Below are positions 519-30,811 of a stretch of DNA of 31,286 nt, piece by piece. The notes below the pieces were generated by a model. It saw nothing but the letters and a program-made list of their open reading frames with translations, was not told the origin of the DNA and made no database searches. The translations under genes and the position numbers were made by a program. The DNA lies in the IMG/VR virus record IMGVR_UViG_3300010300_000059, positions 1 to 31,286 of that record, one strand, 5' to 3'. Position 1 is the stretch's first letter. Each line of letters opens with the position of its first letter. The stretch comes from a virus.

Positions 519-534
519 ACGTTTAAACAGTGCT

Positions 535-2894: not shown

Positions 2895-2902
2895 GTTTAA
2901 AC
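2895..2902. promoter_or_regulatory. GTTTAAAC palindrome between genes
   Basis: One of the 25 GTTTAAAC sites. It occupies most of the short gap between two structural genes and lies just upstream of the AGAGG ribosome-binding site (2907-2911) of the next gene. Confidence 0.7.
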
Positions 2903-5118: not shown

Positions 5119-5499
5119 ATGAACTCTAAAGATTTAGACCCAATGAAGCAGCCATTTGGCGGAATGTTACCTAAGTATCAAAATGGTGGTGAGTTAAATA
5201 TAGATAGCTCTGTATTTGAAGGCTTGGTGGTAGGAAGCGGCGGCGGAATGGATGATGTTGTTCCCGCAGTTGTTGATGGTATTGAGCCGGTATTGTTGTC
5301 ACGAGATGAATATGTAATCCCAGCAGATGTCGTCGCTCATGTAGGTGATGGCAGCACCACAAGAGGTGGCGAGCTTTTTGATGAAATGATTGCAAATATC
5401 AGAAAAGAAAAGACAGATACAGTAGAGCAACCAGAAGAGCTAGAAGAAACGCCAGATGATATTATGGCAATGCTAAGGAAGCCCGTTAAGGTTGTTTAA
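5119..5499 (+). CDS. 126-aa conserved phage structural-block protein
   Basis: A Gly-rich, acidic segment (GSGGGMDDVVPAVVDG) is followed by PVLLSRDEYVIPADVVAHVGDG, a pattern I associate with conserved small proteins next to tail or ejection genes in marine podoviruses. The function is unknown. The start has an AGGA ribosome-binding site 7 bp upstream. The gene ends in Val-Val-stop, the TAA being the centre of a GTTTAAAC palindrome (5494-5501). The next start codon follows at 5502. Confidence 0.6.
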   Translation: MNSKDLDPMKQPFGGMLPKYQNGGELNIDSSVFEGLVVGSGGGMDDVVPAVVDGIEPVLLSRDEYVIPADVVAHVGDGSTTRGGELFDEMIANIRKEKTDTVEQPEELEETPDDIMAMLRKPVKVV

Positions 5500-5501
5500 A
5501 C
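5494..5501. promoter_or_regulatory. GTTTAAAC spanning a stop and abutting a start
   Basis: The palindrome holds the stop codon of the upstream gene (GTT TAA) and is immediately followed by the ATG of the next gene. It lies between that ATG and the nearest SD-like AAGG, so a protein bound here could influence translation coupling or transcription. Confidence 0.6.
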
Positions 5502-5996
5502 ATGGCGTTCGATATTGAACTTATAAAGAAGGACGATATTTTAAAAGTTTGGGGTGAGGTTGCTCATTACGCAGAAAACTTAGAGCGACGTAGTCATGGG
5601 CGTTATGTGACTGCGGATATACTTCATCAACTACTAGAGCTTCCATATTTTGTGTGGATAGTAAGAGAGAATGGAAACGCGCTTGGGTTTTTTATTTGCG
5701 GTGTAAATACATACCCAAGAAAAACATATTTAGATTTAAACACTCTTAGTGGCAACCGCCTGAAAGAGTGGGCGTCGGAAGCATATGATGTGGTTGAGAA
5801 GTTTGCGCAAACTCTTGGCCTTGATGGACTAGAAACATCAACGGCTCCCGGCATGGAAAAGGCGTTTAAACGACATGGCTTTTCTAAAGAGTATGTTGTT
5901 ATGGTTAAGCCAATAGAAAAATTGACAGAGCAAGCAGAAGAAGGTGACTTGCAAGATGTTGACGAACCACTGATGGAGGTGGCGTATGGGCGGTAG
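5502..5996 (+). CDS. GNAT-fold acetyltransferase-like protein
   Basis: The 164-aa protein has the strand-helix order of a GNAT domain. It has an N-terminal helix (about 10-30), a central beta hairpin (PYFVWIVRENGNALGFFICGV, about 50-70), a helix region (about 85-110) and the typical end motif of a late strand with KRHGFSKEYVVMVK (about 126-140). I cannot see a clear acetyl-CoA binding Q/RxxGxG/A motif, so activity is uncertain. GNAT-like proteins commonly sit in this position among marine phage structural genes. The start directly abuts GTTTAAAC, and the gene carries a second such site internally (5864-5871, encoding Phe-Lys). The 3' end overlaps the next gene by 11 bp. Confidence 0.5.
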   Translation: MAFDIELIKKDDILKVWGEVAHYAENLERRSHGRYVTADILHQLLELPYFVWIVRENGNALGFFICGVNTYPRKTYLDLNTLSGNRLKEWASEAYDVVEKFAQTLGLDGLETSTAPGMEKAFKRHGFSKEYVVMVKPIEKLTEQAEEGDLQDVDEPLMEVAYGR

Positions 5997-7977: not shown

Positions 7978-7985
7978 GTTTAAAC
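7978..7985. promoter_or_regulatory. GTTTAAAC between SD-like AAGG and start codon
   Basis: The palindrome lies directly before the ATG at 7986, with AAGG just upstream of it, the same arrangement as at 5494. The start codon follows the final C without a spacer. Confidence 0.6.
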
Positions 7986-13300: not shown

Positions 13301-16300
13301 GCGGAGCCAGAAGCAAAGCCAGCCAAGCGTCTACAGACTAAAAAGCAAAAAGCGTTAAGTGCTAAAGAAAAGAAAGACATTGTAAATTTTGCTAATGGAT
13401 TGCTTTTAGAAAAAGACAGTGCGTCTGCGCCGTTGCGGAAGCTAGTAAGCGATGCTTATGGTGAGCAAAGGGCGCAAGGAAAAGATCACAACGGGGCATT
13501 GGATGCCTTGGAAACGAACGAAGATCTTATTGAGGCTGCGAATCAAGAAGACGAACTGTCTGATCTTGATGACATTGATTTTCTACGCAAGGAAGGGCTT
13601 CAAGATACTGGTGTCATACAAGGAACTCAGGTCACTGCAACTCCTGATGGGCCGGGAATTGTTAAAAGCAAAGCGCCATTAGATATAAACGACTTTAACC
13701 GAGTTAAGGCAATAGTAAACTCTATTGCCCCAGAAGCTAACTTGGTGGTGGCAAGCCAGCTTTATGGGCCTAGTAGGGGCGGCGAAGCAAATCAAAATGA
13801 AGTAGAGATTGATGGCGTTGTATACCCAATGGAAGAAGCATTGGGATTACAGGCTGGCAACATAGTGGCCGTGTCATTAGCTGATGGGTTTCTTGACCCA
13901 CAAAACCGCGCATACCACGAAGCCACGCACTTTCTGTACAACAACAACTACCTTACAGATAAAGATAAGGCAGATCTTGCAGCCAACATAGATAGGTTGC
14001 AGGGCATTGTATCCAATCACTTGGGCGCAACAGAGTATAATCGCGCTTTTGATGGGCTTACGCCGGAGCAGAAGCTTAACGAGCTAATAGCGTATGGCTC
14101 TGCGCTATACAATCGTGGGTTAGACATAGATGGCAAGGTGCCAAAAGAGTTTAACCCCGGATTGCGTAGGATATTCAGCAAGATTGCAAAGCTGTTTAAA
14201 CAGATTAAGGCGGCATTTTCTGGGGAAGGAAGACCTGCTGAGATCGAGCAAGTCTTTGAAGAGATACGACAAGGTCGCGTAGGAAAGCGCTTACCACAAG
14301 CAACAAGCCAGTTTGATGCGACAGGTCTATCTGCATCTACGCCGCTTTACATGATAAAGCAGGGGCCAGCAGCGGCAGTAACAGAGGCTAGGCCACAGAT
14401 AAAGTCTCGACTTGTTGGCACATTGCAGGGCAAGGCATCACAGAAAGCGTTGCCAGAAGCTTGGGCTACCATCAAGAAGAACGACAAGGGTAAAGACCAG
14501 CTATCAGGAATACTCCAAGGCACCAAGATAGAAGAGTTTAACGACTCTAAGCTTGCGTCATTCTTAGCAACCTTGCCTCAAGACAAAGCTGTATCAGGTC
14601 AGGAGTTGTTAGACCATGTATCCGACATGGAGCAAATTGTTGAAATACAAATCTATGGACGGCCAATAGATAGGTCTGCTTACGGAAGATCAGAAGATCG
14701 CGGCCCCGGCATTGATTCTGAGACCGCTTATCGGGCTGCGTTACAAGAAGACAGAAACAATCAAGCGTTTAATCAGGTAGCTAATCAGGCAATGACTAGC
14801 TTGCGCCTCAACAAGTTTGCGATGAATGTTATTGAGCCGCTCAAGATGTACTTGTCAACCAATGACAGTGTGCCTAATCCATCTGTTGATGGCCCAGCAT
14901 TGCCGCAAAGCATTCAGTCTGCGCTAAATGAAATAAGCGTATTTACTGAACCAACTGATAATCAACGCAAAGGGCTTATTAAAGCTCTAACATTGGAAAT
15001 TAAAGATCCAAAATCGGGATTTGATAAAAAGTTATTGGGTCAGATCCTTGTAGAAAATAGCTACAAAGGGCAGCAACTTAAAGCAACAGAAGAAGAAGCG
15101 GAATCAATAAACTTAGATCCGACACTAACAAAGGCTGGTGTAGGCTCAGAGGTTTCTGTAGACCCGACAGAAAGTGAAGCTCCTAATTTCTACTATGCTT
15201 ACACAACGATGGGTGGCAGAGAAATACCACAACCTCCTGAAGGTCAACTCCCTGCCGCGCTTGAAGATCGAAACTATAGAGACATTGTTTTATCGGTTCC
15301 CACATTAGCTGGCGAAGGCTGGTATCACGGACATTTTCCCGATATACGAAACCCGATTATGCATATGAGGGTGTCAGATATTGTTTTGGATAATGGAGAT
15401 ATAGCTCTTGTTGTGGAGGAGATTCAATCGGATCTTCATCAAAGCGCCCAAACGCAGATGAAGGCGCTTGCAGCAAGTGATTTGTATAGCGATGGCCAGA
15501 TTTCATCAGACAACTTTGACCGTTTAAACAGGGAAGAAAAACAGCTAGTCCGACAAGCTGTTGATGAATACAAAGATAAAGTTTATGGCGTAACAGTCCC
15601 TGATCTTCCGCTTAAAAACGAAAATCAACGCCTAGCATTTGCTATGGATATGCTTACAAAGATGGCTGTTAAAAATGGCTATGATCAAATAGCAATATCA
15701 AATAGCGAAATGCAAGTAGAGCGTTATCGTAATGGCGTCAAAGAGCATATTGATGGTTTGGTGTTGAGCGCTTTGCCCAAAAAAGTCATGCGGCCCAAAA
15801 CAAGAAACTCAGATGGCTCTGTGTTATTTGAGGTTGTCCGAGACGAACTTGGTGGCGCTAAAGACTTAGGGTTTACCGACAAAGAAATTGATGAAATGGA
15901 AGAGGATGGCATCATTCTTTTCAAAGAAGACGTTTTGGCGCGGCTCAATGAAAACATAGGGTTACTTACTCCAGTAGAGTTAGATATAGATCAAGATCTA
16001 TCCTTTCCCAAAGCACAAGCTTTAGGTGGAATGCCCCTTGGTCAGGAAGCATTCTTAGAGCAAGAAGAAAAAGTTCAGTATGCTGATCAGGCAATTAGCC
16101 AAGCTTTTGAGCGGGTTGAAGATCTTTTTAATCCGCAAGTCAAAGGCGATTTTATGTTGCGCTTCTTCAATCTTGATCTGGAAGCAGCAGAAAGAGCTAT
16201 TAAGTCAGAATTTGACGAGTCTTCGGAAGCGCTGTACGAGGATGTTGTTGCTCTGTCAATGGCGCAAGCGCTTATAGAGCGGAACCCGTTAATACCCAAG

Positions 16301-19300
16301 AAGATTCTTGCTTCATATACGCAGCCAGTAGAAGGCGTGAGTAATGAAGGCGAGTATTTTTCTGGCAGTTTTTACAGGGGCACTATTGAGCTAGGTGAAA
16401 AAGATTCTAGGTTGTCATTTGATAACGCGCTTAAGCTCAACGTAAACGATTGGCTCGGAGAAAACATATCTAAGCTTGTATTGGATGAGATGGGTACGAG
16501 TTCAGGATTTTATGCGCCAAACTTGGTGTCTTTTGTACAAGAAAAGATTACTCAGCTAGAGCAGCTTAAAGCAAAGAAGGAGCGAGGAGAGCAGCTTACT
16601 GCACAAGAGTTAGAATCTGAAAGCTTGTTGGATGTTCCCGCTATACGGGACGCTAGAGACAGAACTACGGGCGCTATTGATTTGCCTGTGGGCGGTGGGT
16701 TTGAAAACATTTACGACCAAAAGATGCCGCAGCAGCTTGTCGAAGCAATGGCTCGGTTGTTTGGAACATCAGGCAAGCCGTTTAAAAAAGCCAAAGAAGA
16801 AATAAAACGCGCCAATAAAGACAAGCGTTTGTATATTGGCACAGGCGATTCTCCGCTTACAGGGATGGGCGATGTCATTCCTTTTGAAGAAGCAACGATT
16901 GTTGACATTAGCAATGATCCTGCTGCGTCTGCTGGTAGCCGCAGCCGACCAATAGGGGAGGGCACAGCAGAAGCGCAAGCCTTGCAAAGAGCGTTGATCG
17001 AAAGCGATACGACACAAGATTTTTTTAGGGAGAGAGATCCAGATTTTCCAGCAGAAGATTTTGGGGATGTAACACAACGATACGCAATTACTACATCTCC
17101 TCAGAGAAACCAGTTACGAACATTTGAGATCACTGATGACATGCGCTCATCAGATCAATTGCAAGAAGCATCAGAAATATACTATGCCCGTAAAGAGAAT
17201 GATCGCGTAGAGGCTACAAACAAAGGCACCGATGACCTAAGAGGCGTATTTAAGAATGCCCGTCAGAGGGGAATAGACTTCATCAACAGCTTGCCGTTCT
17301 TCAATACACTAAGGGCAATGCCAGATAAGAGAGAGTTTTACCTGTCACGAGCAGAATACCTTGGTGTTGTGGCACGATCCTCTAAGATCGCTGAATACCT
17401 TAGAGATGAGATTGGCAACAAGTTCCTGACACGGAAAGGCTCAAAGAACCGACAATCTACGGAGCTTTTGCGCAGCACTATCTATCAGTACATGACCACA
17501 GGTGAACCTGCTCAAGAAGAGGCGCTGTTTAAACAGCTTCAAGCGCTTGACAACCGGGCAGCGGCAGCAGCGTTTAAAGCTAAGGACATGATTGAGCGCC
17601 TTGGTGGTGAGCTTATGAATGCTGGACTGTTACCAGCCAAGACATACTTTGAGAACAAGCGCTCATACTTGCCGCGCATGTACTTGAAGCATGTGCTTGA
17701 AGATAAGCGGGACGCTAAGTTCAGCTATCTCAAACAAAGAAAAGATTTAGACCCAGAAGCGCAAGAAGCGTTGGGCGCAATTAATGAGCTTGACCCTGCC
17801 TTCCTAGTTTCTCGCGCCATACAGCGGCCTGTAAGGGATTTGCAGTTTATAGAGTGGATGAACTCTATATCTGAGAACAAGAACTGGACTACTAATGACG
17901 ATCAGTTTTTGGTTCCGTATGGCCCACCGGACGAGAACGGACAGCCATCTAATGTGAGCGGTTTTTATCTTATAAATGAGGTGCAGACGCTTCGTGATAT
18001 AGCAACGGCGCTAGAAGCAGCAGAGCCAGAGCGAGCAGCAAGACTCCGTAACGACGCAGATCAAATGGAACAGGCTGTAATAACTACGTTTGAAGAGCGC
18101 GGCCTATCGGAATACTTAACTGATCCCAATAAGGATATATCAGTTGCTCTCCAGCAATATGGTGACCAATACAGGCGCGTCCCGAAAACAAGAGAGTATG
18201 GTTTGCTTGCTGGCCGGTTAGTGCGAACAGAGATCTATGATGATGTCGTTTCGTCAGGCGCAATGCTCAACGTGGGCGACGAGGCATACGTTAATCTCAT
18301 GTCGAAGGGCCGCAAATTCACGGCTGTCTGGAAGACCATCAAGGTTCCGCTTAACCCACCGACCATTGCGCGTAACACTTTCAGTAACGCCATACTGATT
18401 CACTTGTCAGGTGTGCCATTCCATCGCGTTCTTCCTCGCATGATTGAGGCTGCGAGAGAGATCGTTGCGTACAGAAACAATGACTTTGAAAACTCCAAGC
18501 ACTTTGCAGAGATGCTAAAGCGAGGAGTGCAGCAGTCATCATTTACTGATCAAGAGCTTATGCAGATGTCTGATGACATGCTTGATTTCTTAAAGTCAGT
18601 TGATGCAAAAGACATCGGGTTGTTGGGTTGGCTCAAGCTAAATACATGGACGCGATTGGCAAACAAAGCCAGCAACATATATCAAGGCATTGAAGTTGTA
18701 GGCAAGACTGCAATAGCCATAGATGTAATGGAGCGACAGGGCGGCTCGGCAGACGATGCATTCTTAAAGGCTCAAGAGTATCTGTTTGATTACTCTGATG
18801 TCCCGCAAGTGGTGCGTGGATTGCGACAAAGCCCCTTGGGTATCCCATTCCTTACGTTCCAATACAAAGTTCTACCAGTATTGGCAAAGACTGCATTGCG
18901 TAACCCAACTAAGTTTGCGCCATATGTCGCCCTTAGTTATGCGTTGCCATCGTTGTTTATGTCTATGTTCGATATAGACGATGATGAGTACGAGCAAGTT
19001 AAGAAGTCACTGCCTGACTACCTGAGAAACAATCCCGGCCTTATACCGTTGCCAGCTAGAGATGCACAAGGTCGCTTGCAGTTTATGGACACAAGCTATT
19101 TGTATCCTTGGGGTTCTCTGTCTGGCCTCGGAGCAAATCTAGCCGCTGGTGTTAAGACTGCAACAGGCACAAAGGCAGCGGAAGATCAGGGCTTCAGCGT
19201 TAAAGATGTCACCTCGTTAGTGGGCATGTTTGGTGGCCCAGCATGGTCGTTGTTTGGCGCATCACAAAATCTTGATCCGTTTACACAGCGTCCAATAGTT

Positions 19301-19789
19301 AACCCATCAGACCCGATGTACATAGAAAACGCCATAGAGCGACCATTCTATAAGCGTGGGAAGCTTACCGACGCTATGTTTTGGGCGGCTAATCAATATG
19401 TCTTGCCGGGATTTTTGAACACAGAATACGGTGCGGTATCTAAACTAAACACCGCATTGCGCGGCGGTAAAAAAGCTAGCGGTGTTGAAAGCGACACTGT
19501 GGGTCAAGCATTAATGCGCATGATTGGTTTAAACGTAACCAATGTAGATCCTAGACAAATACTTTTGTCTTTAACGTATCTGGATAAAGAGCGTAATGAT
19601 GTACTCGCAGCAAGGCGTCGGGTTCTGAAAGACCAAACATTGTCACGCGCCGAGCGTCAGCGCAGAGTTAAGAATTACAACTCTAAGCTTGAGGACTATA
19701 GGCAGAAATATGCAGCGCTCGTAGAAGCTGGCAGAACAACACGGCTGATTACTGAGCGTCTTCGTAGAGAAGACAGGGAAGCGGAATGA
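10322..19789 (+). CDS. Giant polyvalent/ejection protein with HExxH zincin
   Basis: This 3155-aa protein takes up 30% of the window. From N- to C-terminus there is a Pro/Gln-rich leader (1-105), helical Gly/Ala-rich segments that may insert in membranes (about 115-360), and a charged low-complexity region with a coiled coil near 660-690. A zinc-metallopeptidase motif HEATH (1199-1203) follows, with Glu1254 as a possible third ligand. Next is a region with VVEEIQSDLHQ (1697-1707) and NGYDQIAISNSE (about 1785), typical of phage polyvalent proteins, and then a C-terminal region (about 2640-2990) resembling LPD38 of Iyer, Burroughs and Aravind. Such proteins are thought to be packaged and injected with the DNA. 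Domain names are from memory and need a profile search. Five evenly spread GTTTAAAC sites lie inside. The stop overlaps the holin start. Confidence 0.7.
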   Translation: MATQEERIQQLIATLQGPAPGLRRSFDAPPEGLRRSLLPRQLNVPDTQQGSFLDIASGAPMQPAPFVQQPVQPPQPMPEPTTGLDLFKAFDSPFATEPPPSTTGMFEGTDDSLYAVPRGIARGAMQTGLSMAEGMFSIVDMLADIPDAVGLAATKDLVDRETSEFFQNIQEAKRYVGNEEGMIGKLFEGVGSIFTFALPGLGQAGALARGTALAAKGPQYLEASRRALGLAKGLSGIKYTFAGSAGAGQSSAMLEAYKAAGNDYTVGQRNLATALGIPIGLLELLAPEMVLRGIPNSIAGATKSQILRRLGEAGTTGIGEGAQEAFSGVLQEVAAKLNYNPDMPIGESMLSDFGYGAGAGGIFDLLTRGKVRYPKSDKEITKEYQDSTPLAPLDDEFIQDAQRNETAIAVYDADGNQLSGQIIGTDGDDAKVLIDEELFYVPLNQTPSEDQGLSFAKDADLITPRYQIDGRDVGSLTAQELEEAKLRAFLPPELVADVDAGNLSVLEAVKAMNIGEDGTAQVSAKKAYDVKAIEAELDRRNPSRESNRPTANNDKQLTDEEAGIIDSGENADEASDPIISGILGDDTDTVIGRVAGDKDVERYDDIEDKAIKAAFKRGRVPKKAQAGLIDEVAGTEGASLADLDNAQKAQLMDKAFGYQDAQKAKAEAAEQQRVADEAARQAEADEIKQALGPTTEAVDGSAPAFEEPLDEDQDEELVVSTEKQNRRAASFRKRLADAETPIDRINAAVSMITRGQVDNNPQLIAEGEAALRAAEAEGFTVQEGTRKGDTRTYSEDDEGLIRDITFENAPNEGDIETIERVQKVGILQDGELVQVPQITTSYKAPDQAPEAQTTQDPFQSKAVEDSKPRYRNVMPVFESQLDKALYIVGNPRSKSKADDQIMGELRKYLGRGAPGFPDSEIRSLGMLVRQKVKELGEPAQQGDQTDFDVPQIAEPNVSANELQRRLEGVPVPTPEVDATPEVVVEAEPEVVVEAEPEAKPAKRLQTKKQKALSAKEKKDIVNFANGLLLEKDSASAPLRKLVSDAYGEQRAQGKDHNGALDALETNEDLIEAANQEDELSDLDDIDFLRKEGLQDTGVIQGTQVTATPDGPGIVKSKAPLDINDFNRVKAIVNSIAPEANLVVASQLYGPSRGGEANQNEVEIDGVVYPMEEALGLQAGNIVAVSLADGFLDPQNRAYHEATHFLYNNNYLTDKDKADLAANIDRLQGIVSNHLGATEYNRAFDGLTPEQKLNELIAYGSALYNRGLDIDGKVPKEFNPGLRRIFSKIAKLFKQIKAAFSGEGRPAEIEQVFEEIRQGRVGKRLPQATSQFDATGLSASTPLYMIKQGPAAAVTEARPQIKSRLVGTLQGKASQKALPEAWATIKKNDKGKDQLSGILQGTKIEEFNDSKLASFLATLPQDKAVSGQELLDHVSDMEQIVEIQIYGRPIDRSAYGRSEDRGPGIDSETAYRAALQEDRNNQAFNQVANQAMTSLRLNKFAMNVIEPLKMYLSTNDSVPNPSVDGPALPQSIQSALNEISVFTEPTDNQRKGLIKALTLEIKDPKSGFDKKLLGQILVENSYKGQQLKATEEEAESINLDPTLTKAGVGSEVSVDPTESEAPNFYYAYTTMGGREIPQPPEGQLPAALEDRNYRDIVLSVPTLAGEGWYHGHFPDIRNPIMHMRVSDIVLDNGDIALVVEEIQSDLHQSAQTQMKALAASDLYSDGQISSDNFDRLNREEKQLVRQAVDEYKDKVYGVTVPDLPLKNENQRLAFAMDMLTKMAVKNGYDQIAISNSEMQVERYRNGVKEHIDGLVLSALPKKVMRPKTRNSDGSVLFEVVRDELGGAKDLGFTDKEIDEMEEDGIILFKEDVLARLNENIGLLTPVELDIDQDLSFPKAQALGGMPLGQEAFLEQEEKVQYADQAISQAFERVEDLFNPQVKGDFMLRFFNLDLEAAERAIKSEFDESSEALYEDVVALSMAQALIERNPLIPKKILASYTQPVEGVSNEGEYFSGSFYRGTIELGEKDSRLSFDNALKLNVNDWLGENISKLVLDEMGTSSGFYAPNLVSFVQEKITQLEQLKAKKERGEQLTAQELESESLLDVPAIRDARDRTTGAIDLPVGGGFENIYDQKMPQQLVEAMARLFGTSGKPFKKAKEEIKRANKDKRLYIGTGDSPLTGMGDVIPFEEATIVDISNDPAASAGSRSRPIGEGTAEAQALQRALIESDTTQDFFRERDPDFPAEDFGDVTQRYAITTSPQRNQLRTFEITDDMRSSDQLQEASEIYYARKENDRVEATNKGTDDLRGVFKNARQRGIDFINSLPFFNTLRAMPDKREFYLSRAEYLGVVARSSKIAEYLRDEIGNKFLTRKGSKNRQSTELLRSTIYQYMTTGEPAQEEALFKQLQALDNRAAAAAFKAKDMIERLGGELMNAGLLPAKTYFENKRSYLPRMYLKHVLEDKRDAKFSYLKQRKDLDPEAQEALGAINELDPAFLVSRAIQRPVRDLQFIEWMNSISENKNWTTNDDQFLVPYGPPDENGQPSNVSGFYLINEVQTLRDIATALEAAEPERAARLRNDADQMEQAVITTFEERGLSEYLTDPNKDISVALQQYGDQYRRVPKTREYGLLAGRLVRTEIYDDVVSSGAMLNVGDEAYVNLMSKGRKFTAVWKTIKVPLNPPTIARNTFSNAILIHLSGVPFHRVLPRMIEAAREIVAYRNNDFENSKHFAEMLKRGVQQSSFTDQELMQMSDDMLDFLKSVDAKDIGLLGWLKLNTWTRLANKASNIYQGIEVVGKTAIAIDVMERQGGSADDAFLKAQEYLFDYSDVPQVVRGLRQSPLGIPFLTFQYKVLPVLAKTALRNPTKFAPYVALSYALPSLFMSMFDIDDDEYEQVKKSLPDYLRNNPGLIPLPARDAQGRLQFMDTSYLYPWGSLSGLGANLAAGVKTATGTKAAEDQGFSVKDVTSLVGMFGGPAWSLFGASQNLDPFTQRPIVNPSDPMYIENAIERPFYKRGKLTDAMFWAANQYVLPGFLNTEYGAVSKLNTALRGGKKASGVESDTVGQALMRMIGLNVTNVDPRQILLSLTYLDKERNDVLAARRRVLKDQTLSRAERQRRVKNYNSKLEDYRQKYAALVEAGRTTRLITERLRREDREAE

Positions 19790-20169: not shown

Positions 20170-20595
20170 ATGTCAAAAGATTTAATAGAGATGCTGCGAA
20201 GGCATGAGGGTGTGCGCAGCCATGCGTACAAGTGTTCAGAGGATATGATCACTGTAGGTGTCGGGCGCAACATTGACGAGAACGGTGGCCTTGGGCTGTC
20301 TGAGGACGAGATAGACTACTTGCTGGAGAACGACATCACGAGAGTCCGTCAGGAATTGACTGACGCTTACTTCTGGTTTCCGGCTTTGAATGAAGCGCGA
20401 CAGGATGCGATGATCGACATAAGCTTTAACCTCGGCATGACAAGACTGCGCGGATTTGTGAAAGCGATTGAAGCAATGAGCCGCGAGCAGTTCGACATTG
20501 CAGCCGATGAGTTTATGGATTCGCGTTGGAGCCAACAGGTTGGCAACCGCGCTGTGGAAGTAACCGAGATGATAAGAAGCGGCGATTATGTTTAA
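20170..20595 (+). CDS. T4-like lysozyme (GH24 endolysin), Cys variant
   Basis: The 141-aa muramidase aligns by eye with T4 lysozyme: Glu13 in RRHEG, Cys22 at the place of Asp20, and Thr28 in MITVGVGR, giving the spacing E-8-C-5-T. The catalytic Asp is thus replaced by Cys, a change reported to keep activity in T4 lysozyme mutants and seen in natural relatives. No signal peptide or SAR segment is visible, so export should rely on the upstream holin. The start follows the holin stop without a gap, with GGGAG upstream. The gene ends in Val-stop inside a GTTTAAAC palindrome, overlapping the next start. Confidence 0.9.
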   Translation: MSKDLIEMLRRHEGVRSHAYKCSEDMITVGVGRNIDENGGLGLSEDEIDYLLENDITRVRQELTDAYFWFPALNEARQDAMIDISFNLGMTRLRGFVKAIEAMSREQFDIAADEFMDSRWSQQVGNRAVEVTEMIRSGDYV

Positions 20596-20803
20596 ACGAT
20601 ACGCCAAAGGCGGAAAGGTTAAGAAGAAAAAGAGCAAGTCTCGCGTCAACGAGGCTGGCAATTACACTAAACCAGAGATGCGCAAGCGCCAGTTCAACCG
20701 CATCAAAGCGGGTACGAAGGGTGGAAAGGCTGGCCAGTGGTCGGCGCGTAAAGCCCAGATGCTCGCTAAGGCATACAAAGATGCCGGTGGTGGGTACAAG
20801 TAA
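20588..20803 (+). CDS. 71-aa basic protein, DUF5872-like
   Basis: A Lys/Arg-rich N-terminus (MFKRYAKGGKVKKKK) is followed by the segment KAGTKGGKAGQWSARKAQMLAKAYKDAGGGYK, which I associate with the DUF5872 family of marine phages. The start codon overlaps the lysozyme end by 8 bp and lies on GTTTAAAC (20590-20597). The net positive charge suggests nucleic-acid binding. Whether it is a virion component or an intracellular DNA-binding protein is unknown. It is the first of three basic proteins in a coupled row. Confidence 0.7.
   Translation: MFKRYAKGGKVKKKKSKSRVNEAGNYTKPEMRKRQFNRIKAGTKGGKAGQWSARKAQMLAKAYKDAGGGYK
20590..20597. promoter_or_regulatory. GTTTAAAC shared by a stop and the next start
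   Basis: In the lysozyme frame the palindrome reads Val-stop; in the next gene's frame it supplies the last base of ATG and the codons for Phe-Lys. One 8-mer therefore joins two coding frames. Confidence 0.7.
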
Positions 20804-21057: not shown

Positions 21058-21383
21058 GTTTGACAGATGCAGAGAAGAATAGGCTAAAGAAGGTCGGCCT
21101 TACTGGTTTAAACAAGCCAAAAAGAACGCCTAGCCACAAGACAAAGAAAGGTGTCGTGGCTGTGCGCGATGGCGGGAAGATGAAGATCATTCGCTTTGGT
21201 GATCAGAAGATGGGTCACAACTACAGTGACGAGGCTAGGAAAAGTTTCAAAGCTCGCCATGCAAAGAACATTAAGAAGGGCAAAACATCAGCAGCTTACT
21301 GGGCAAACAAGATGTTCTGGAGTGGGAAGGGTGGTAGCAGAAAGTCTCCGCCTAAATCACAGAAGCAGAAGTTCGGTAAGTAA
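21054..21383 (+). CDS. 109-aa basic protein, DUF6321-like
   Basis: The sequence contains LTDAEKNRLKKVGLTGLNKPKRTPSH, a short beta-rich core with IIRFGDQKMGHN, and SFKARHAKNIKKGKTSAAYWANK, resembling DUF6321 proteins of marine phages. The function is unknown. It closes the long + strand block. It carries an internal GTTTAAAC (21106-21113, Leu-Asn). No clear intrinsic terminator with a T tract follows. Confidence 0.7.
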   Translation: MSLTDAEKNRLKKVGLTGLNKPKRTPSHKTKKGVVAVRDGGKMKIIRFGDQKMGHNYSDEARKSFKARHAKNIKKGKTSAAYWANKMFWSGKGGSRKSPPKSQKQKFGK

Positions 21384-21584
21384 TCATATAGATTATCCTC
21401 TACTATCCGTGTTTAAACATTACCTATAACTGTGTTTTGATTTCACTACGGGTATCTAAAACACTCTAGTAGGTGGTTGTTTAAACGCTACCCGGTTCCC
21501 CAGAAAGTTGCGAACCCGCCTTCGGTCATACACGGACGGGAACGTGCTACGGCGGCTGATCAAGGCCCTGACCTAACACTGTTG
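21384..21584. other. Convergent gap with two GTTTAAAC sites
   Basis: This 201-bp stretch separates the ends of the + strand structural block and the - strand regulator/recombination block. Transcription should terminate here from both sides, but I see no GC-rich hairpin followed by a T tract. It contains two GTTTAAAC palindromes only 68 bp apart (21411-21418 and 21479-21486), the closest pair in the window. A weak inverted repeat (GGGTA 21450-21454 / TACCC 21489-21493) brackets the second. A possible TTG-started ORF begins at 21477. No tRNA is evident. Confidence 0.6.
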
Positions 21585-21662
21585 TTACATAAATCTGCTT
21601 ACAATGGAAGTGCGTTTGCGCTTATCTTTTGCAGCAGCGGTAGGAGGCTCTGGAGTCTCTAG
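21477..21662 (+). CDS. Possible 61-aa TTG-started ORF
   Basis: From a TTG, the frame reads MFKRYPVPQKVANPPSVIHG and then a plausible soluble sequence (ERATAADQGPDLT). The opening TTTAAACG-TAC matches the start of the DUF5872-like gene at 20588. The last 78 bases overlap the XRE regulator on the other strand, and no well-spaced ribosome-binding site is seen. It could be a real last gene of the + block, or a degraded fragment. Confidence is low. Confidence 0.25.
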   Translation: MFKRYPVPQKVANPPSVIHGRERATAADQGPDLTLLLHKSAYNGSAFALIFCSSGRRLWSL

Positions 21663-21851
21663 CTGTATGTAAACCTTTGCACCCAAAGCGTTGGCCAAGT
21701 TCTCCACTATCCCGAAGCTGGGGTTGCGTAGACCGCGTTCCACCTGACCAACATAACTCTTAGTGCTGCCAGCTTTGTCAGCCAACTCTTGAAGCGACAT
21801 CCCTTGGTCGGCGCGTAACCTACGCAACTCCTCGGTATACCAAGTCTTCAT
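21585..21851 (-). CDS. XRE-family transcriptional regulator
   Basis: The 88-aa protein carries a Cro/C1-type helix-turn-helix at about residues 19-55 (MSLQELADKAGSTKSYVGQVERG, then PSFGIVENLANALG), the full HTH_3 pattern, followed by a short basic tail. It is expected to bind palindromic operators as a dimer. It is the last gene of the - strand block, and its ATG overlaps the stop of the gene upstream (ATGA). It could regulate the early/late switch. It is also one of the candidates to bind the genome-wide GTTTAAAC palindrome, though nothing in the sequence proves this. Confidence 0.85.
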   Translation of the reverse strand: MKTWYTEELRRLRADQGMSLQELADKAGSTKSYVGQVERGLRNPSFGIVENLANALGAKVYIQLETPEPPTAAAKDKRKRTSIVSRFM

Positions 21852-22297
21852 GCGCTAACCTCGCTTTCAAACAACTTGAGGTGTTCGTTTAAACGCTCCC
21901 TAGCTTCTTCGTTTGTCTTGAGTTCTGACCTAGATTCGATGCCGCAAATAAATCTAATGACATCTGCCGCATAATCCTCGTCGCTCTGAGTCTCATCAAC
22001 AGGGTGCCATTGATAGTAATTCATGCGAACCCATTTGATATACGACTCATCCCTACATATGAGGTTGGCCCTAGCTAAAGCTTTCTCTGCGTCCGTAACA
22101 GCCGCTGGCCTGATGGGGTTTTCAAAGTCATCTATCTGCGCACAGGCAATCATATACCGCTGCCCGATTGGGGAGGTGGCCATATCCTTTGGCACATCAC
22201 TGGGGTGCAGCACAAAAGACAAGACCATCCCATCTTTCGATTGCCGATACGCATACTTCTTTGCCTCAAAGCTTTCCGCTATGTCCTCACCCTTCAT
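21848..22297 (-). CDS. 149-aa conserved hypothetical protein
   Basis: The protein has a central beta region (MVLSFVLHPSDVP ... GQRYMIACAQIDD, about 24-57), a pattern found in uncharacterised proteins of alphaproteobacterial phages. A helical C-terminal half with SYIKWVRMNYYQ and an acidic end follows. The function is unknown. It overlaps both neighbours by a few bases, so it is translated as part of the - strand operon. It contains a GTTTAAAC (21887-21894) encoding Leu-Asn near its C-terminus. Confidence 0.6.
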   Translation of the reverse strand: MKGEDIAESFEAKKYAYRQSKDGMVLSFVLHPSDVPKDMATSPIGQRYMIACAQIDDFENPIRPAAVTDAEKALARANLICRDESYIKWVRMNYYQWHPVDETQSDEDYAADVIRFICGIESRSELKTNEEARERLNEHLKLFESEVSA

Positions 22298-22905: not shown

Positions 22906-23197
22906 CTCTCATTCCTTCGTTGCGTTTAAACATTTCTAACCACGCCATGGGGTCGATACCTTGTAGCGCCCACCATCGCTTTTCGTTGCCATGCGCATGA
23001 AGCTGTCTGTGATGGTCATCACATAAAGGGACTGCGTGTTGATCCCCGCTTCTTCGCATACCTCGCAATCCATCTTCCTCTACAAAGGTAAGATGGTGTG
23101 CTTGGGCTGGCCTGTAACAAACCAAGCAGCCCTGTTCACGCACCGTTTGCAGATGCCTACGGCTTCGTAGTTTTTTCGACCACGTTTTCTTCTGCAA
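22883..23197 (-). CDS. HNH-like nuclease, DUF968/Ref-type
   Basis: The 104-aa protein has a zinc-binding treble-clef arrangement: Cys24-x2-Cys27, His34-His35, Cys59-x2-His62-His63, then His67. This corresponds to the HHL...VPLCxxHH pattern of DUF968 and of RecA-dependent Ref-like nucleases. The KRWWALQGIDPMAWLEMF tail is also typical. It probably nicks or cuts DNA during phage recombination or replication. The 41-bp overlap with the upstream gene is unusual but the N-terminal residues look authentic. GTTTAAAC at 22924-22931 encodes Phe-Lys. Confidence 0.7.
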   Translation of the reverse strand: MQKKTWSKKLRSRRHLQTVREQGCLVCYRPAQAHHLTFVEEDGLRGMRRSGDQHAVPLCDDHHRQLHAHGNEKRWWALQGIDPMAWLEMFKRNEGMRDDSEEEE

Positions 23198-24408: not shown

Positions 24409-25273
24409 CACTTTCTCCTTGTTGTTTAAACGCAGCATATTGGTCGCAGTACAGCGACACATCACAGAACTGCTCGCATCGTAGAGGTTGTCCTCGACGG
24501 TGATCAATCCTGTGCTTGTCTGCATCCTTTTGTGCCGAGATGAATGTCTCAGCTTCTTGCATTGAATCGAACACACGCACTGCGCGTACCCGCTTCTCCT
24601 TCATCACTGCAAACTTCTCCTCTCGGAGCCACCGCTCTTCGTCTGTGCAGTCAGGCAACTTGCCAGACAGAGCCTCTTGGTGTGCAGCGATCCGCTCAAC
24701 AACAAACTTCTCCGTCTTTTCGATAGGCCAAAGAGGAATGTCTTGAATCCAAATGTCGTGCTGCGGGTATTCCGGTTTGCGAGCAGCGTCGTGCTTGCTC
24801 CAATCCTTGATGAAGTTAATGATCTGCAACCCGCTTACTTCGATACCGTTCCTGTGCGCTATGTATGCGTATATGTTGAGTTGTTTCTCGTCGCTGTCGT
24901 TATTCATAACGCCATACGCTTTGCGCGTCTTGTAGTCCTGTAACACCCGTGTGCCATCCGGTTGCACATGCTGTACGTCTATGGCACCTGATAGCTTTAC
25001 GCCGCTCACAGAGCAGTACAGGCGCTCCTCCGTGATAAAGTCGGGATGCTTTGAGTCTTCGAGAATGTTGTGGACTGCTGTTCCAAACAGCGTCCAAAGA
25101 TTACTGCTCACATCTCTGAACATGATGTTGTTCGGGTCATCGAACAAAGCTGCCATGCGAGGTGGGCGCAGCAACCCCGTCGCACTAAACGACGCATCAC
25201 CCTTGGTGTAGCTGTCGCGTGTCAGCGCTGCGGCTAGTGGGGCAGGAAGCCCTAACTTATTGGTGTAGTTCAT
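24401..25273 (-). CDS. RecB/Cas4-like PD-(D/E)XK nuclease
   Basis: The 290-aa protein shows the motif order of the Cas4/RecB nuclease fold: GTAVHNILE with His68, then LSGAID with Asp99, then LQDYKTRKAY with Asp113 and Lys115. Three cysteines near the C-terminus (266, 270, 276), with Cys87 as a possible fourth, could hold an iron-sulphur cluster as in Cas4, but the spacing is not canonical. Adjacent to the annealing protein, it is expected to resect DNA ends for recombination. It overlaps that gene by 8 bp and is divergent from the RusA-like gene. GTTTAAAC at 24424-24431 lies near its 3' end. Confidence 0.8.
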   Translation of the reverse strand: MNYTNKLGLPAPLAAALTRDSYTKGDASFSATGLLRPPRMAALFDDPNNIMFRDVSSNLWTLFGTAVHNILEDSKHPDFITEERLYCSVSGVKLSGAIDVQHVQPDGTRVLQDYKTRKAYGVMNNDSDEKQLNIYAYIAHRNGIEVSGLQIINFIKDWSKHDAARKPEYPQHDIWIQDIPLWPIEKTEKFVVERIAAHQEALSGKLPDCTDEERWLREEKFAVMKEKRVRAVRVFDSMQEAETFISAQKDADKHRIDHRRGQPLRCEQFCDVSLYCDQYAAFKQQGESDE

Positions 25274-25316: not shown

Positions 25317-25754
25317 ATGGAAAAACGGTCTGTCAACAAAATAATTTTTGGAGTTGCGCAAAGCAAGTCTAACAGTCGGCGTCTTGTCACCTTTGGGGGT
25401 AAGCCTCGCTTCATAAAGTCCAAGGCCGCTATTCAGTTTGAGAAAGATGTGAAAGCGCAGATCGGGAAGATGGACAACATGCTTGAAGGCGACCTGTCAT
25501 TCCACGCAGACATCTACTACCCAACACGCAGACAGGATCTTGATCCCAGCATTCTGCTCGATGCGATGCAAGGCTTGCTGTACGAAAACGACAGGCAGTT
25601 TAAACAAATCAGCAGCCGTAGATTTCTGGACAAAGAAAATCCCAGAGCGGAGATAACTATCACGGAGATTAATCACAACGAAAATGGCCCATCGCCACAG
25701 ACGGGGCGTGACGATGAGCCTTCCTTCGCAACAAAGGATGTCAACAAGTTGTGA
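25317..25754 (+). CDS. RusA-like Holliday-junction resolvase
   Basis: The 145-aa protein has the core DLDPSILLDAMQGLLYENDRQ in outline (Asp74, Asp76, Asp82, Asp92) followed by a basic, Pro-containing end (KENPRAEITI), as in RusA. The usual DxDNxxK is changed to DLDPSIL, so the conserved Asn and Lys are missing. The 25317 start is preferred over the 25272 ATG, whose extra residues are Cys-rich and unlike the family and which overlaps the divergent start. It would resolve four-way junctions made by the annealing pair. GTTTAAAC at 25598-25605 encodes Phe-Lys. Confidence 0.75.
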   Translation: MEKRSVNKIIFGVAQSKSNSRRLVTFGGKPRFIKSKAAIQFEKDVKAQIGKMDNMLEGDLSFHADIYYPTRRQDLDPSILLDAMQGLLYENDRQFKQISSRRFLDKENPRAEITITEINHNENGPSPQTGRDDEPSFATKDVNKL

Positions 25755-26711: not shown

Positions 26712-28442
26712 GTGGACTTCTGGGATTCTCTGGCAAGCGAAGGCTTCGCCATCAATGCGCTGTCTGAGGGGCAATCAAAAATACTTTGCCCCAAGTGCAG
26801 TAGCACCCGTACAAAAAATAAACATGAGCATTGTCTGTCAATTTCTATTGACGGTGAAGGAGCGCAATGGCGTTGCCATCACTGCGATTGGACAGGGAAT
26901 GTGTGGAGAAACAGCATGAATAGTAGCCCGTTTAAACGGAGCAAGCGGCCTGAAGTGGTCAAGCCAAAGGAGCCGCCGGTCATACCCGATTTGGAAAAGC
27001 CTAGCGAGGGCGTGATCAAATGGTTCAGTGACCGAGGTATCTCTCGTAAGGTTGTCGAGATGGCTGGGGTGGAGACAGGTAGCGCGTACATGAACGGAAA
27101 GAGCAAGCGAGCTATTGCGTTTGTGCATAGGGATTGCGGGGGCAAGATCATCAACGTCAAGTTCCGAAGCAATCAAAAGGAGTTCAGCCAGATCAAGAAT
27201 GGAGCGAGGCTCCCCTATCTGTGGAACCTGATTGAGCCAAGCAACGACCAATTGATTATCACCGAAGGTGAGGTAGATGCATTAACATGCATGGAGGTGG
27301 GATACAGCAACGTCATAAGCGTACCTGATGGTGCGAGTGACAAGAAGCTGTTGTGGGTGGAGGATCTGGAGGAGGAGTTAAAGCAGTTCAAGCGGATTGT
27401 TTTGCTCACGGATGGGGATTCCGTTGGTATCGCAATGCGCAATGAGCTTGCGCGTAGGTTGGGTAGGCATAGATGTTGGCGGGTTGATTGGCCAGAGGGC
27501 TGCAAAGATCCAAACGATATGCTCGTCGGCTACGGCGCGGAGAAGTTCAAGGAGTTTGTGGATGGCGCAGAACCATGGCCGTTAAAAGCGTTGCATGAGA
27601 CACGCTCATATGTGAACGATGCTTTCGCATTGCTGAATGGCGATGTGAAAACTGGTGTTAGCACAGGTATTGCCGCACTGGATCTGAACTATCGGGTGAG
27701 GGCTGGCGAGCTAAACATTATCAGTGGAGCGCCGGGAGTTGGTAAGTCAGAATTCCTAGATCAAATCTGTTTAAACCTTGCGGCGATGGAGGATTGGAGG
27801 TTTGCAGTTTGCTCGTTTGAGAACCCAGTTGACGAACACATCAACAAGTTGGCAGCTAAATTTGTCGGCAAGCCAGCATGGGATGTGCGTAGTGGGGAGA
27901 AGATGAACCACAACGAGTGGTCAGAGGCGGTTAGTTTTATTGGCAAGCACTACTACTGGATTAGATCCGAAGACGAAGCGCCTACTGTGGAGTGGTGTTT
28001 GGAGAATGCAACCGCGTGTGTGCAGCGATACCCAAACGTGCGCGGCCTGATCCTTGATCCGTACAACGAGTTTGAACACCGCCGCCCTAGCGGGTGGACG
28101 GAAACGGAGTATGTGTCGCAGATGTTAGCCTCACTCAAGCGTTGGGCAGCAGCAAACGAGTGCGCGATATTTTTGGTTGCCCACCCAGCGAAGCTGAGAA
28201 GGAATCAGGATGGGACGTTCCCTGTTCCAGAGCCATACGACATAGCTGGATCAGCAAACTTTTACAACAAGGCAGACAACATTCTAATTGTGGAAAGGGA
28301 TTTCACGGAAGGATCGGATGACATCCGAGTGCATGTGAAGAAGATAAGATTCAAGCAGAGTGGTAGGGTGGGGACAGTCGATCTCAAATACAACTACGTT
28401 GACGGTAGTTATCGGACACCAACAGGGGGGTTATCGGGATGA
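26712..28442 (+). CDS. T7-type DNA primase-helicase
   Basis: The 576-aa bifunctional enzyme has an N-terminal zinc-binding domain (Cys26, Cys29, Cys55, Cys58) and a TOPRIM primase core with EGEVDALT (Glu185, Glu187, Asp189) and TDGDSVG (Asp234, Asp236). A RecA-like DnaB-family helicase domain follows with Walker A GAPGVGKS (339-346) and Walker B GLILDP (Asp449). It should unwind the fork and make RNA primers. Initiation is at GTG 26712, 2 bp after the previous stop; no ATG allows the whole zinc finger. Two GTTTAAAC sites lie inside (26930 Phe-Lys; 27769 Leu-Asn). No replicative DNA polymerase is seen in this window. Confidence 0.95.
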   Translation: MDFWDSLASEGFAINALSEGQSKILCPKCSSTRTKNKHEHCLSISIDGEGAQWRCHHCDWTGNVWRNSMNSSPFKRSKRPEVVKPKEPPVIPDLEKPSEGVIKWFSDRGISRKVVEMAGVETGSAYMNGKSKRAIAFVHRDCGGKIINVKFRSNQKEFSQIKNGARLPYLWNLIEPSNDQLIITEGEVDALTCMEVGYSNVISVPDGASDKKLLWVEDLEEELKQFKRIVLLTDGDSVGIAMRNELARRLGRHRCWRVDWPEGCKDPNDMLVGYGAEKFKEFVDGAEPWPLKALHETRSYVNDAFALLNGDVKTGVSTGIAALDLNYRVRAGELNIISGAPGVGKSEFLDQICLNLAAMEDWRFAVCSFENPVDEHINKLAAKFVGKPAWDVRSGEKMNHNEWSEAVSFIGKHYYWIRSEDEAPTVEWCLENATACVQRYPNVRGLILDPYNEFEHRRPSGWTETEYVSQMLASLKRWAAANECAIFLVAHPAKLRRNQDGTFPVPEPYDIAGSANFYNKADNILIVERDFTEGSDDIRVHVKKIRFKQSGRVGTVDLKYNYVDGSYRTPTGGLSG

Positions 28443-28672
28443 GCGCAAAGTTTTTAAAAGCGATACGCGCACAGGATGATGCGCACAGGTTGTTTGAGAA
28501 ACCAAAGGTCTACGAAAAGCGTAAACCTTTGACGGACGAAGAAGTTGAGAGAGTGGCTAGGCTTTACAGCGAAGGCGTGACTCAAGCAGAGATTGCGAGA
28601 GCGATTAAGATTGCGCCGTCAAGTGTCTACAATGTGGTGCGTAGACACCTGCGGCGATTAGGTAGCGTTTAA
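28439..28672 (+). CDS. 77-aa HTH DNA-binding protein
   Basis: A basic N-terminus is followed by a helix-turn-helix at about residues 31-70 (LTDEEVERVARLYSEG, then TQAEIARAIKIAPSSVYNVV), similar to the resolvase or sigma-region-4 type. Its ATG overlaps the primase-helicase stop (ATGA). The gene ends Ser-Val-stop inside a GTTTAAAC palindrome that also holds the stop of the convergent gene. It could act as a replication or transcription regulator and is a candidate reader of that palindrome. Confidence 0.75.
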   Translation: MSAKFLKAIRAQDDAHRLFEKPKVYEKRKPLTDEEVERVARLYSEGVTQAEIARAIKIAPSSVYNVVRRHLRRLGSV

Positions 28673-28674
28673 AC
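28667..28674. promoter_or_regulatory. GTTTAAAC containing the stops of two convergent genes
   Basis: The + strand gene stops at TAA 28670-28672 and the - strand gene stops at 28669-28671. Both TAA codons lie within the self-complementary 8-mer, so each protein ends in Val-stop. No other spacer separates the two transcription units. Confidence 0.8.
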
Positions 28675-29085
28675 GTCAAGCATTCTTTCGATCTCCTCGA
28701 TGGCTTTGTTGCGCTCATCTTGGGATTGAAGGATGCCGACCTTGTCATCGACATAATCCTTGTCACCTAGATCCTTGATTGCTTTATCCACTGCGCCTTC
28801 AAGTTTCCACTTGACCGAGTAAACATACTGACGGCTAACGCCTTCGTCTTCTGCGATGCTTGCCATGCTGCGTTCGCCCTCCCGTATGGCCAACCTTATG
28901 CGGTCAGCCCGTTCGGAGTTGCGCGTTGGCTTCTTCAAAGACAGGTACTCCTCCTCTGTCATTGCGCTCAAAAGGTATGGCCGCATGGTGCTAAGGGGTA
29001 CGCTGATCTCCTCTGCGATCTGCTTGAGCGTACTCCCGTTGCGCCTTAGATGTACGGCAGCGGCGATCCATGGTACGCCAGACAT
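28669..29085 (-). CDS. Double helix-turn-helix protein
   Basis: The 138-aa protein has two HTH-like segments: about residues 15-40 (NGSTLKQIAEEISVPLSTMRPYL) and about 70-93 (GERSMASIAEDEGVSRQYVYSV). A charged helical C-terminus follows. I chose ATG 29085 because GGAGG is well placed and because the ATG overlaps the upstream stop; the longer frame to 29145 has no such support. Two DNA-binding units suggest an architectural or regulatory protein, perhaps Terminase-small-like or a phage regulator. No certain family. Confidence 0.65.
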   Translation of the reverse strand: MSGVPWIAAAVHLRRNGSTLKQIAEEISVPLSTMRPYLLSAMTEEEYLSLKKPTRNSERADRIRLAIREGERSMASIAEDEGVSRQYVYSVKWKLEGAVDKAIKDLGDKDYVDDKVGILQSQDERNKAIEEIERMLDV

Positions 29086-29477
29086 CAGTAGTCCTCCGGC
29101 ATCAGCACAGTCAGAGTCTCGTGCCCTGCATCCAAGATCAGCCACACCAGATCTTTGGCGTCGTTGTATGGGTACTGACCCATCACCATGCCGCCACGCT
29201 TCACGCTGGCTAGGTTGGTTTCCTTGTCTTCATCGCAGATGACACCCCAATCCAAGCCGTTGAATCGGCGGAGCGTTGACTGCACCCATTCGTTTAAACG
29301 CTCTGGAGTCATCGCATGAAGCAGTTGTTCCTCGGCGTTGGCAGTCATGGCAAAGTTCTGAACCCCGCCCAAGATGTTGTGTGATGGCGACTGTAGTTGG
29401 ATGCGTACAGTGCGATCCAAGTCCACATCCTCACCCACATCAATTTTCTCGCCGCTCATGTTGTAAACATTACTCAC
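29085..29477 (-). CDS. 130-aa hypothetical protein
   Basis: Translation probably begins at GTG 29477 (SNVYNMSGEKIDVG...), since AGGAG is 7 bp upstream and the frame overlaps the previous gene by 8 bp. The N-terminus has beta-strand character, the middle is helical (AEEQLLHAMTPERLNEWVQ), and the C-terminus is beta-rich (DLVWLILDAGHETLTVLMPEDY). The family is not recognised. GTTTAAAC at 29292-29299 encodes Leu-Asn. Confidence 0.6.
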   Translation of the reverse strand: MSNVYNMSGEKIDVGEDVDLDRTVRIQLQSPSHNILGGVQNFAMTANAEEQLLHAMTPERLNEWVQSTLRRFNGLDWGVICDEDKETNLASVKRGGMVMGQYPYNDAKDLVWLILDAGHETLTVLMPEDY

Positions 29478-29649
29478 TGGCACTCTCCTTCTTCTTCTCA
29501 TCAATGGCTGCAAGCAGCCCATCTACCATGTCACAGATAGCCACCATGCCATCATCCTTGCGAGCCTTGGTCACTTCTTTCTTGATCATGCCCACGATTT
29601 TCTTATCGCCCATATCGCTGGCGATTTTTCTGAGTTCTGAAATCTTCAT
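29470..29649 (-). CDS. 59-aa helical hypothetical protein
   Basis: The short, mostly helical peptide (MKISELRKIASDMGDKK, then MIKKEVTKARKDD, then DMVDGLLAAIDEKKK) overlaps the GTG start of the next gene by 8 bp. It starts at ATG 29649, preceded by GGTAACAC, the same leader as the nuclease gene at 25273. Its function is unknown. Confidence 0.6.
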   Translation of the reverse strand: MKISELRKIASDMGDKKIVGMIKKEVTKARKDDGMVAICDMVDGLLAAIDEKKKESASE

Positions 29650-29786: not shown

Positions 29787-30116
29787 TTAATGCTTCGCAC
29801 TGGTCAACGACTCTTTCGCTGCGAGGATACGCTCATGTTCGATCAAACCCTCCAGCGCTCTGGCGTGTGCCCTGCGGATAACGTGTAGGCATTGCAGCAG
29901 CAGGTTGTTTTGCACTGAACTATATGAATCCGAAAGATCTATCTCCATCAATTGATCGTGAACGATCATCACCATGCGAGCAAACATCACATCGAGTTCG
30001 CTATGAGATCCAGCGTGTTTAAACACATCCATGCTTTGCTGCTCTGTCTTGCGGATAAACCCCCTGCAAATCTCCATCGTCTCATCGACAATCTTCTTCT
30101 GTCTCTGCATATTCAT
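29787..30116 (-). CDS. 109-aa helical hypothetical protein
   Basis: The start at 30116 follows AAGGAGA with good spacing; the longer frame to 30239 has no such support and runs through the neighbouring gene. The sequence is highly helical (KIVDETMEICRGFIRKTEQQ, then ELDVMFARMVMIVHDQLME, then LLLQCLHVIRRAHARALEGL) and may form a helical bundle. No family is recognised. GTTTAAAC at 30017-30024 encodes Phe-Lys. Confidence 0.6.
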   Translation of the reverse strand: MNMQRQKKIVDETMEICRGFIRKTEQQSMDVFKHAGSHSELDVMFARMVMIVHDQLMEIDLSDSYSSVQNNLLLQCLHVIRRAHARALEGLIEHERILAAKESLTSAKH

Positions 30117-30132
30117 GCACATCTCCTTGTTG

Positions 30133-30572: not shown

Positions 30573-30811
30573 CACTCGTCCTCCCAATCATCTTGATCAA
30601 ATTCATCAAACATATCGTTTTCAGTTTCGACAACCTCTACCACCCCATCGAAGTACCGTTTAAACACATCGACAAGGTACTCGTAGTCGCCCTGTTGCAT
30701 TTCGTAGACGATCTCTTTGCCATCCAATCCCATTTGCTTTGCAAAGTTTTTGGCGTGACCCATCAACGCGAATCCGTTACCGTCTTGTCCACTTAGGTCT
30801 ATCGTGACCAT
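30572..30811 (-). CDS. 79-aa conserved phage hypothetical
   Basis: The sequence MVTIDLSGQDGNGFALMGHA, then FAKQMGLDGKEIVYEMQQGDYEYLV, resembles small proteins found in many phage early regions, without known function. The C-terminus is strongly acidic. ATG 30811 is preceded by AAGGAG at suitable distance, which rules out the 30841 start. GTTTAAAC at 30658-30665 encodes Phe-Lys. Confidence 0.65.
   Translation of the reverse strand: MVTIDLSGQDGNGFALMGHAKNFAKQMGLDGKEIVYEMQQGDYEYLVDVFKRYFDGVVEVVETENDMFDEFDQDDWEDE

Follow-up and report, generated by a model that had tools for sequence, protein, structure and literature searches.

An iterated 8-bp palindrome in tailed phages as a possible site of a phage-carried DNA-binding protein

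The 8-bp palindrome GTTTAAAC occurs 25 times in a 31,286-nucleotide stretch of viral DNA (IMG/VR record IMGVR_UViG_3300010300_000059, positions 1 to 31,286; hereafter, the window), against 0.58 copies expected (sd 0.62, dinucleotide shuffles), and is therefore far above chance (Table 1). The runner-up enriched 8-bp palindromes have 2–4 copies each. The copies of GTTTAAAC are exact, selectively maintained, symmetrically flanked and enriched at gene starts; among the genomes sampled, the motif is restricted to phages, in which it co-occurs with a double-HTH protein and an SprT-like protein. We give roughly even odds to the explanation that GTTTAAAC, in its extended form RnnnYGTTTAAACRnnnY, is the symmetric site of a phage-carried DNA-binding protein and that the sites form a genome-wide operator or roadblock network on phage transcription. 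Protein binding at the sites, the identity of the reader and transcription as the target are what we infer.

In one copy, two convergent genes end at overlapping TAA codons, an HTH gene on the plus strand and the double-HTH gene on the minus strand. The original prediction had described these overlapping stops and a terminal valine in both proteins, and the coordinates and ORFs confirm both points (the plus ORF ends in ...RLGSV-TAA and the minus ORF in ...ERMLDV-TAA). Its description of both products as HTH proteins agrees with Pfam (HTH_38 on the plus strand, HTH_7/HTH_40 on the minus strand). The junction itself is not conserved. The arrangement of the window recurs in L001; in three loci with a primase that is 99% identical (L003, L004 and L008) the plus-strand gene stops just upstream of the palindrome, and relatives of approximately 78% identity have no plus-strand HTH gene and a double-HTH gene with its stop at another position. 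Across 18 clade contigs, single stops within a copy of GTTTAAAC are common, and both stops lie inside one copy only in the window and its near-identical relative G010. The junction is thus ruled out as a conserved regulatory feature. It is a by-product, which arises because a dense palindrome with TAA on both strands falls between convergent genes, and the repeated palindrome is the thing to explain.

Table 1 Positions of GTTTAAAC copies and of selected genes in the window
Positions	Strand	Feature	Remark
521..528	.	GTTTAAAC	6 bp upstream of ATG at 535
2895..2902	.	GTTTAAAC	14 bp upstream of ATG at 2917
5494..5501	.	GTTTAAAC	stop of 5119-5499, abutting ATG at 5502
5864..5871	.	GTTTAAAC	intragenic
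7978..7985	.	GTTTAAAC	abutting ATG at 7986
9653..9660	.	GTTTAAAC	intragenic
12163..12170	.	GTTTAAAC	within 3155-aa gene
14194..14201	.	GTTTAAAC	within 3155-aa gene
15522..15529	.	GTTTAAAC	within 3155-aa gene
17527..17534	.	GTTTAAAC	within 3155-aa gene
19527..19534	.	GTTTAAAC	within 3155-aa gene
20590..20597	.	GTTTAAAC	stop of 20170-20595 overlapping start of 20588-20803
21106..21113	.	GTTTAAAC	within 21054-21383
21411..21418	.	GTTTAAAC	intergenic
21479..21486	.	GTTTAAAC	intergenic
21585..21851	-	88-aa XRE/HTH_3 protein	second candidate reader, with a recognition helix that varies within the clade
21848..22297	-	149-aa protein	belongs to a clade-wide cluster
21887..21894	.	GTTTAAAC	within 21848-22297
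22924..22931	.	GTTTAAAC	intragenic
24424..24431	.	GTTTAAAC	intragenic
25598..25605	.	GTTTAAAC	intragenic
26712..28442	+	primase/helicase	placed the phage; used to find relatives
26930..26937	.	GTTTAAAC	within primase/helicase
27769..27776	.	GTTTAAAC	within primase/helicase
28439..28672	+	77-aa HTH_38 protein	closest relatives only; Pfam HTH_38 E=3e-10
28667..28674	.	GTTTAAAC	TAA stops of two convergent genes
28669..29085	-	138-aa double-HTH protein	candidate GTTTAAAC reader; Pfam HTH_7/HTH_40 E ~5e-6; start ATG 29085, alternatively GTG 29145
29292..29299	.	GTTTAAAC	within 29085-29522
30017..30024	.	GTTTAAAC	within 29787-30239
30658..30665	.	GTTTAAAC	within 30572-30841

In 175 kb of relatives, 204 exact copies of GTTTAAAC were counted, with single-mismatch and symmetric variants near chance. 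The same DNA has a symmetric flank preference, RnnnY-GTTTAAAC-RnnnY, with Y at −1 (86%), R at −5 and an avoidance of C at −5; each of the 33 sites in the cultured phages R5C and Pan1 has the form Y-GTTTAAAC-R. The sites are under selective maintenance. At 72% nucleotide identity, the window shares 13 of 15 sites with one relative (G002) and 13 of 17 with another (G005), whereas control 8-mers of the same composition survive in these alignments at a rate of 10–12%, a persistence approximately eightfold lower than that of GTTTAAAC.

This all-or-none specificity for the 8-mer resembles recognition by an enzyme, and highly iterated palindromes have been tied to orphan methyltransferases (PMC4390886). 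GTTTAAAC could accordingly be a target of DNA methylation or another modification, similar to HIP1, and owe its maintenance to a modification enzyme rather than a repressor. We consider this improbable, given that the flank preferences reach −5, that sites are clustered in particular regions and before starts, and that no methyltransferase was found among the scanned proteins of the G003 early region and the window.

Placement along the genome is also non-random. Of the 532 sites in the double-HTH clade, 139 reach into non-coding DNA or a gene end (42 expected, 3.3-fold) and 115 lie at most 60 bp before a start (35.7 expected, 3.2-fold). The earlier suggestion that the motif is related to coding ends holds to this extent; the emphasis it placed on the compact junction, which is not conserved, does not. 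Approximately three-quarters of the clade sites are intragenic, a position unlike that of ordinary operators and one that counts against an operator reading. These intragenic copies use only the two stop-avoiding frames, and the GTT-TAA frame is never used because the stop codon itself forbids it. Five of the eight larger contigs tested (the window, G001, G002, G005 and G007) have sites that are more evenly spaced than random ones; strictly even spacing as a rule fails in G003, G004 and G010. The 3,155-amino-acid gene of the window (10322–19789) has five copies with approximately 1.3–2 kb between them. Other motif-rich genomes have dense arrays in the apparent early region, a designation that comes from gene content and not from expression; one example is G025, with approximately 33 sites in 42.7–51.7 kb. 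Several array sites in these genomes lie directly between the ribosome-binding site and the ATG, with individual gene assignments being approximate because the coordinates come from a simple ORF picker.

Copies in this last position would suit an action at the RNA level, in which GUUUAAAC in the mRNA is a binding or processing site that affects translation. The symmetric flanks, the intergenic and convergent sites and the even spacing within long genes of several contigs point to DNA instead, and we regard an RNA-level role as highly unlikely.

The primase/helicase of the window led to 79 related viral loci. All 52 loci with at least 60% identity carry approximately 0.7–1.8 copies of GTTTAAAC per kb, and all 27 with at most 42% identity have only 0–0.12 per kb; primase-related loci at 58% identity have the motif too. 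Searching for the motif first yielded 118 loci; of these, 103 have densities of 0.6 to 4.2 sites per kb, at GC contents of 31–59%. Two copies were a requirement of the scan, and the set therefore speaks for the breadth of the motif and not for its frequency. Nearly all of the motif-first loci lack the double-HTH protein. In several unrelated groups, many of the larger contigs have 36–49 copies, which is the typical number for a near-complete genome, and we put the genome of the window phage at about 40. Among cultured phages, Dinoroseobacter phage R5C has 17 copies (0.37 expected), Pseudanabaena phage Pan1 has 16 (0.30 expected) and Mica, which infects Burkholderia, has 7 (0.19 expected); ep3 is a weak carrier (4 copies, 0.49 expected). 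Named phages with related terminases (HTVC023P, HTVC027P, 023Pt_psg01, DSL-LC04, MinM2, CRP-901, Caulobacter RW and others) have 0–3 copies. Two IMG/VR loci with isolate-type identifiers, L462 and L464 (GC content of 65%, 5–6 copies each), may be prophages of cultured isolates. Such a motif was not described in the open-licence PMC papers searched in full text for GTTTAAAC together with phage or virus terms, nor is it mentioned in the papers on R5C and Pan1.

No enrichment was found in 398 Pseudomonadota genomes, which have at most approximately 0.055 copies per kb, with few genomes of other phyla counted individually. A three-site scan of genome contigs, which is blind to hosts with a density near 0.2 per kb, gave 29 hits that are apparently tandem, CRISPR-like or otherwise regularly spaced arrays. 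With the Pseudomonadota genomes unenriched and the scan hits confined to regular arrays, host mimicry in the form of a HIP-like genome signature is rejected for the genomes tested. In the genome-contig loci L325–L353, GTTTAAAC sits in CRISPR-like or regularly spaced repeats of cyanobacteria, Bacteroidota and others. Scanning genomes with the phage primase gave no relative, and a search for tRNA genes as a clue to the host found none.

Unrelated phages could also have converged on GTTTAAAC through the same host factor, such as a nucleoid protein, a Chi-like nuclease regulator or a defence system. An identical 8-mer in phages of very different gene content and GC content would fit a host-encoded reader, as would the terminase (TerL) relatives from cultured hosts that lack GTTTAAAC, which a host-dependent trait would predict. 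The known hosts are a roseobacter, a cyanobacterium and a Burkholderia, and the factor would therefore need a very wide distribution. Moreover, none of the 398 Pseudomonadota genomes is enriched, a Chi-like motif is expected to be asymmetric and host-enriched, and the co-occurrence follows phage genes. We therefore judge a host reader to be unlikely, although less so than a modification target.

Within the clade of the window, the double-HTH protein is probably the best candidate for the reader of GTTTAAAC. It is one of the few near-universal gene families across the clade contigs, being encoded in 15 of 16 contigs with the motif and missing only from G007, a partial contig, and tblastn found it in none of 31 motif-less relatives. 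Viral loci with a relative of this protein number 80, down to 34% identity; all 50 that were analysed carry GTTTAAAC well above expectation, and the remaining 30, which are the nearest relatives, lie on contigs for which a high motif density had been established. The GTTTAAAC-bearing loci include a second clade, the primase of which is only approximately 44–50% identical. Among records of the phage collection, there was no convincing relative. Ten diverse copies share twelve invariant residues (P5, W6, A10, L20, I23, R35, Y47, I63, I77, A78, S84 and R85); in the second recognition helix, Q86 and Y89 are nearly invariant in addition to S84 and R85. An AlphaFold model (pLDDT 74) has two HTH units with helices at 20–41 and 74–105, and a PDB fold search with this model gave no significant match.

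The double-HTH protein cannot be a universal reader because most motif-rich lineages lack it. The XRE protein of the window is a less likely reader; its recognition helix is not constant (TKS/NRG/SKH), and no copy was recovered in G002, G004 and G005. Another motif-rich group encodes small HTH proteins at 34109–34378 of G030 (L378) and 21085–21393 of G040 (L394). Their predicted recognition helices, TRQRVYKIL and SRQRVYKII, resemble SRQYVYKL of the double-HTH protein, and these proteins are possibly a second reader.

The common correlate of GTTTAAAC across lineages is an SprT-like/zinc-ribbon protein (phrog_6361), the gene of which lies beyond the right end of the window (for example, at L087:18140-18745). 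It is encoded by 58 of the 103 motif-rich fragments, by 1 of the 15 motif-poor fragments and by none of the 31 motif-less relatives; the difference between the first and the last (Fisher P = 8e-10) is, like all co-occurrence tests of the double-HTH and SprT-like proteins with GTTTAAAC, not corrected for phylogeny. The protein is also absent from 11 named terminase or protein relatives and from six motif-less viral contigs, and no copy turned up in G026, a large contig that is motif-rich. A search from the homologue of a motif-less Streptomyces phage returned 80 SprT loci, 49 of which are GTTTAAAC-rich, some at GC contents of 60–65%.

The protein and the motif also meet at the gene itself. GTTTAAAC lies 12 bp (Mica) and 19 bp (ep3) before the SprT-like gene, and 11 of 44 SprT loci have a copy within 150 bp upstream (3.8 expected; 12% for control ORFs). 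Upstream of the gene in G043 and G044, near-copies such as ATTTAAAC are found where the exact site is missing. The HExxH active site with its downstream H is present in the homologue of the window clade and absent from the members of group 5. In the densest motif group, the protein either has no HExxH or is reduced to a C-terminal zinc-ribbon segment of 55–60 amino acids. The proteins behind this observation are the SprT-like protein at L087:18140-18745 and the homologues of G027, G028, G031, G032 and G035. Because one lineage has lost HExxH and some members are cut to the zinc-ribbon segment, the C-terminal domain is suggested to be the part of the protein under selection.

These observations would also accommodate a variant of our explanation in which the SprT-like/zinc-ribbon protein is the reader in all lineages and the double-HTH protein a clade-specific partner. 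The variant gains from a family that is found across motif-rich groups and absent from motif-less relatives, from the reduction of the protein in the densest group and from the sites upstream of its gene. It loses from the C-terminal KKQxTR/zinc-ribbon segment, which is identical in homologues from motif-less phages, and from the motif-less homologues themselves, which are common in actinophages. We rate this variant as possible but doubtful, slightly ahead of a host-encoded reader. Compared by eye, the zinc ribbons of motif-bearing and motif-less phages have no consistent residue difference, and a zinc-ribbon code for motif specificity was rejected. In the SprT phages Percival and Maureen, a search for an alternative iterated palindrome gave no clear counterpart.

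In our preferred explanation, a phage-encoded DNA-binding protein would bind GTTTAAAC before starts, between genes and inside genes, often most densely in the early region. The bound sites would most likely act as operators or transcription roadblocks, by which phage transcription is shut down or timed, and may additionally help to organize phage DNA. The reader would most likely be the double-HTH protein in the clade of the window; for other lineages, a different small HTH protein or else the SprT-like/zinc-ribbon protein, which is conserved, would be the reader or its partner. R5C is reported to be lytic (PMC5454422), and a lysogeny repressor is therefore not a general answer. More tentatively, and with somewhat less than even confidence, we suggest that YGTTTAAACR is an operator code shared by many unrelated tailed-phage lineages that travels with an SprT-derived zinc-ribbon protein. 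It would constitute a horizontally mobile genome-wide regulon, not described before, in which the protease function can be lost.

If a protein reads GTTTAAAC, one short sequence would expose a whole-genome regulatory network of abundant uncultured phages, and the large phage SprT-like family would gain a function. The cultured carriers R5C (D. shibae), Pan1 (Pseudanabaena) and Mica (Burkholderia) make the reading of GTTTAAAC testable now. The presence of the same motif in unrelated phages, and not in the sampled bacteria, also prompts one to ask how such a code is passed among phage lineages to regulate their genes.

The SprT-like protein shares an HExxH core and a C-terminal zinc ribbon with the phage SprT-like protease family (phrog_6361) that is annotated in Arthrobacter and Microbacterium phages, and its cultured homologues are approximately 30–43% identical. 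In the literature searched, this family has no tie to a repeated DNA motif, and some motif-rich members lack the catalytic motif. HIP1 (GCGATCGC) of cyanobacteria is, similar to GTTTAAAC, a highly iterated 8-bp palindrome that also occurs inside genes (PMC4390886). However, HIP1 characterizes bacterial genomes and is linked to methyltransferases, whereas the enrichment of GTTTAAAC is seen in phages and in none of the tested bacterial genomes.

Among phage systems, SPBRE of the Bacillus phage SPbeta is a repeated element that was found in silico long before its reader, MrpR (PMC10516654), and its genome-wide phage repressor sites resemble the network proposed here. It differs in being a 15-bp intergenic element at approximately ten promoters of one prophage, with a reader of the tyrosine-recombinase fold. 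The stoperators of cluster A mycobacteriophages comprise more than 20 repressor sites dispersed in a single phage genome, where they occupy promoters and short gaps between genes, and are read by an immunity repressor of the L5 gp71 type with two DNA-binding domains (PMC9283540). On binding these sites, the repressor stops transcript elongation. Both stoperators and GTTTAAAC have many dispersed sites per phage genome (25 in the window and mostly 36–49 in near-complete relatives for the latter). Stoperators are 13 bp in length, asymmetric and oriented with transcription, whereas GTTTAAAC is a perfect palindrome with symmetric flanks, is mostly intragenic and is common to unrelated phages. The L5 stoperators and SPBRE/MrpR are each systems of a single phage group, and GTTTAAAC differs from both in symmetry, position and breadth.
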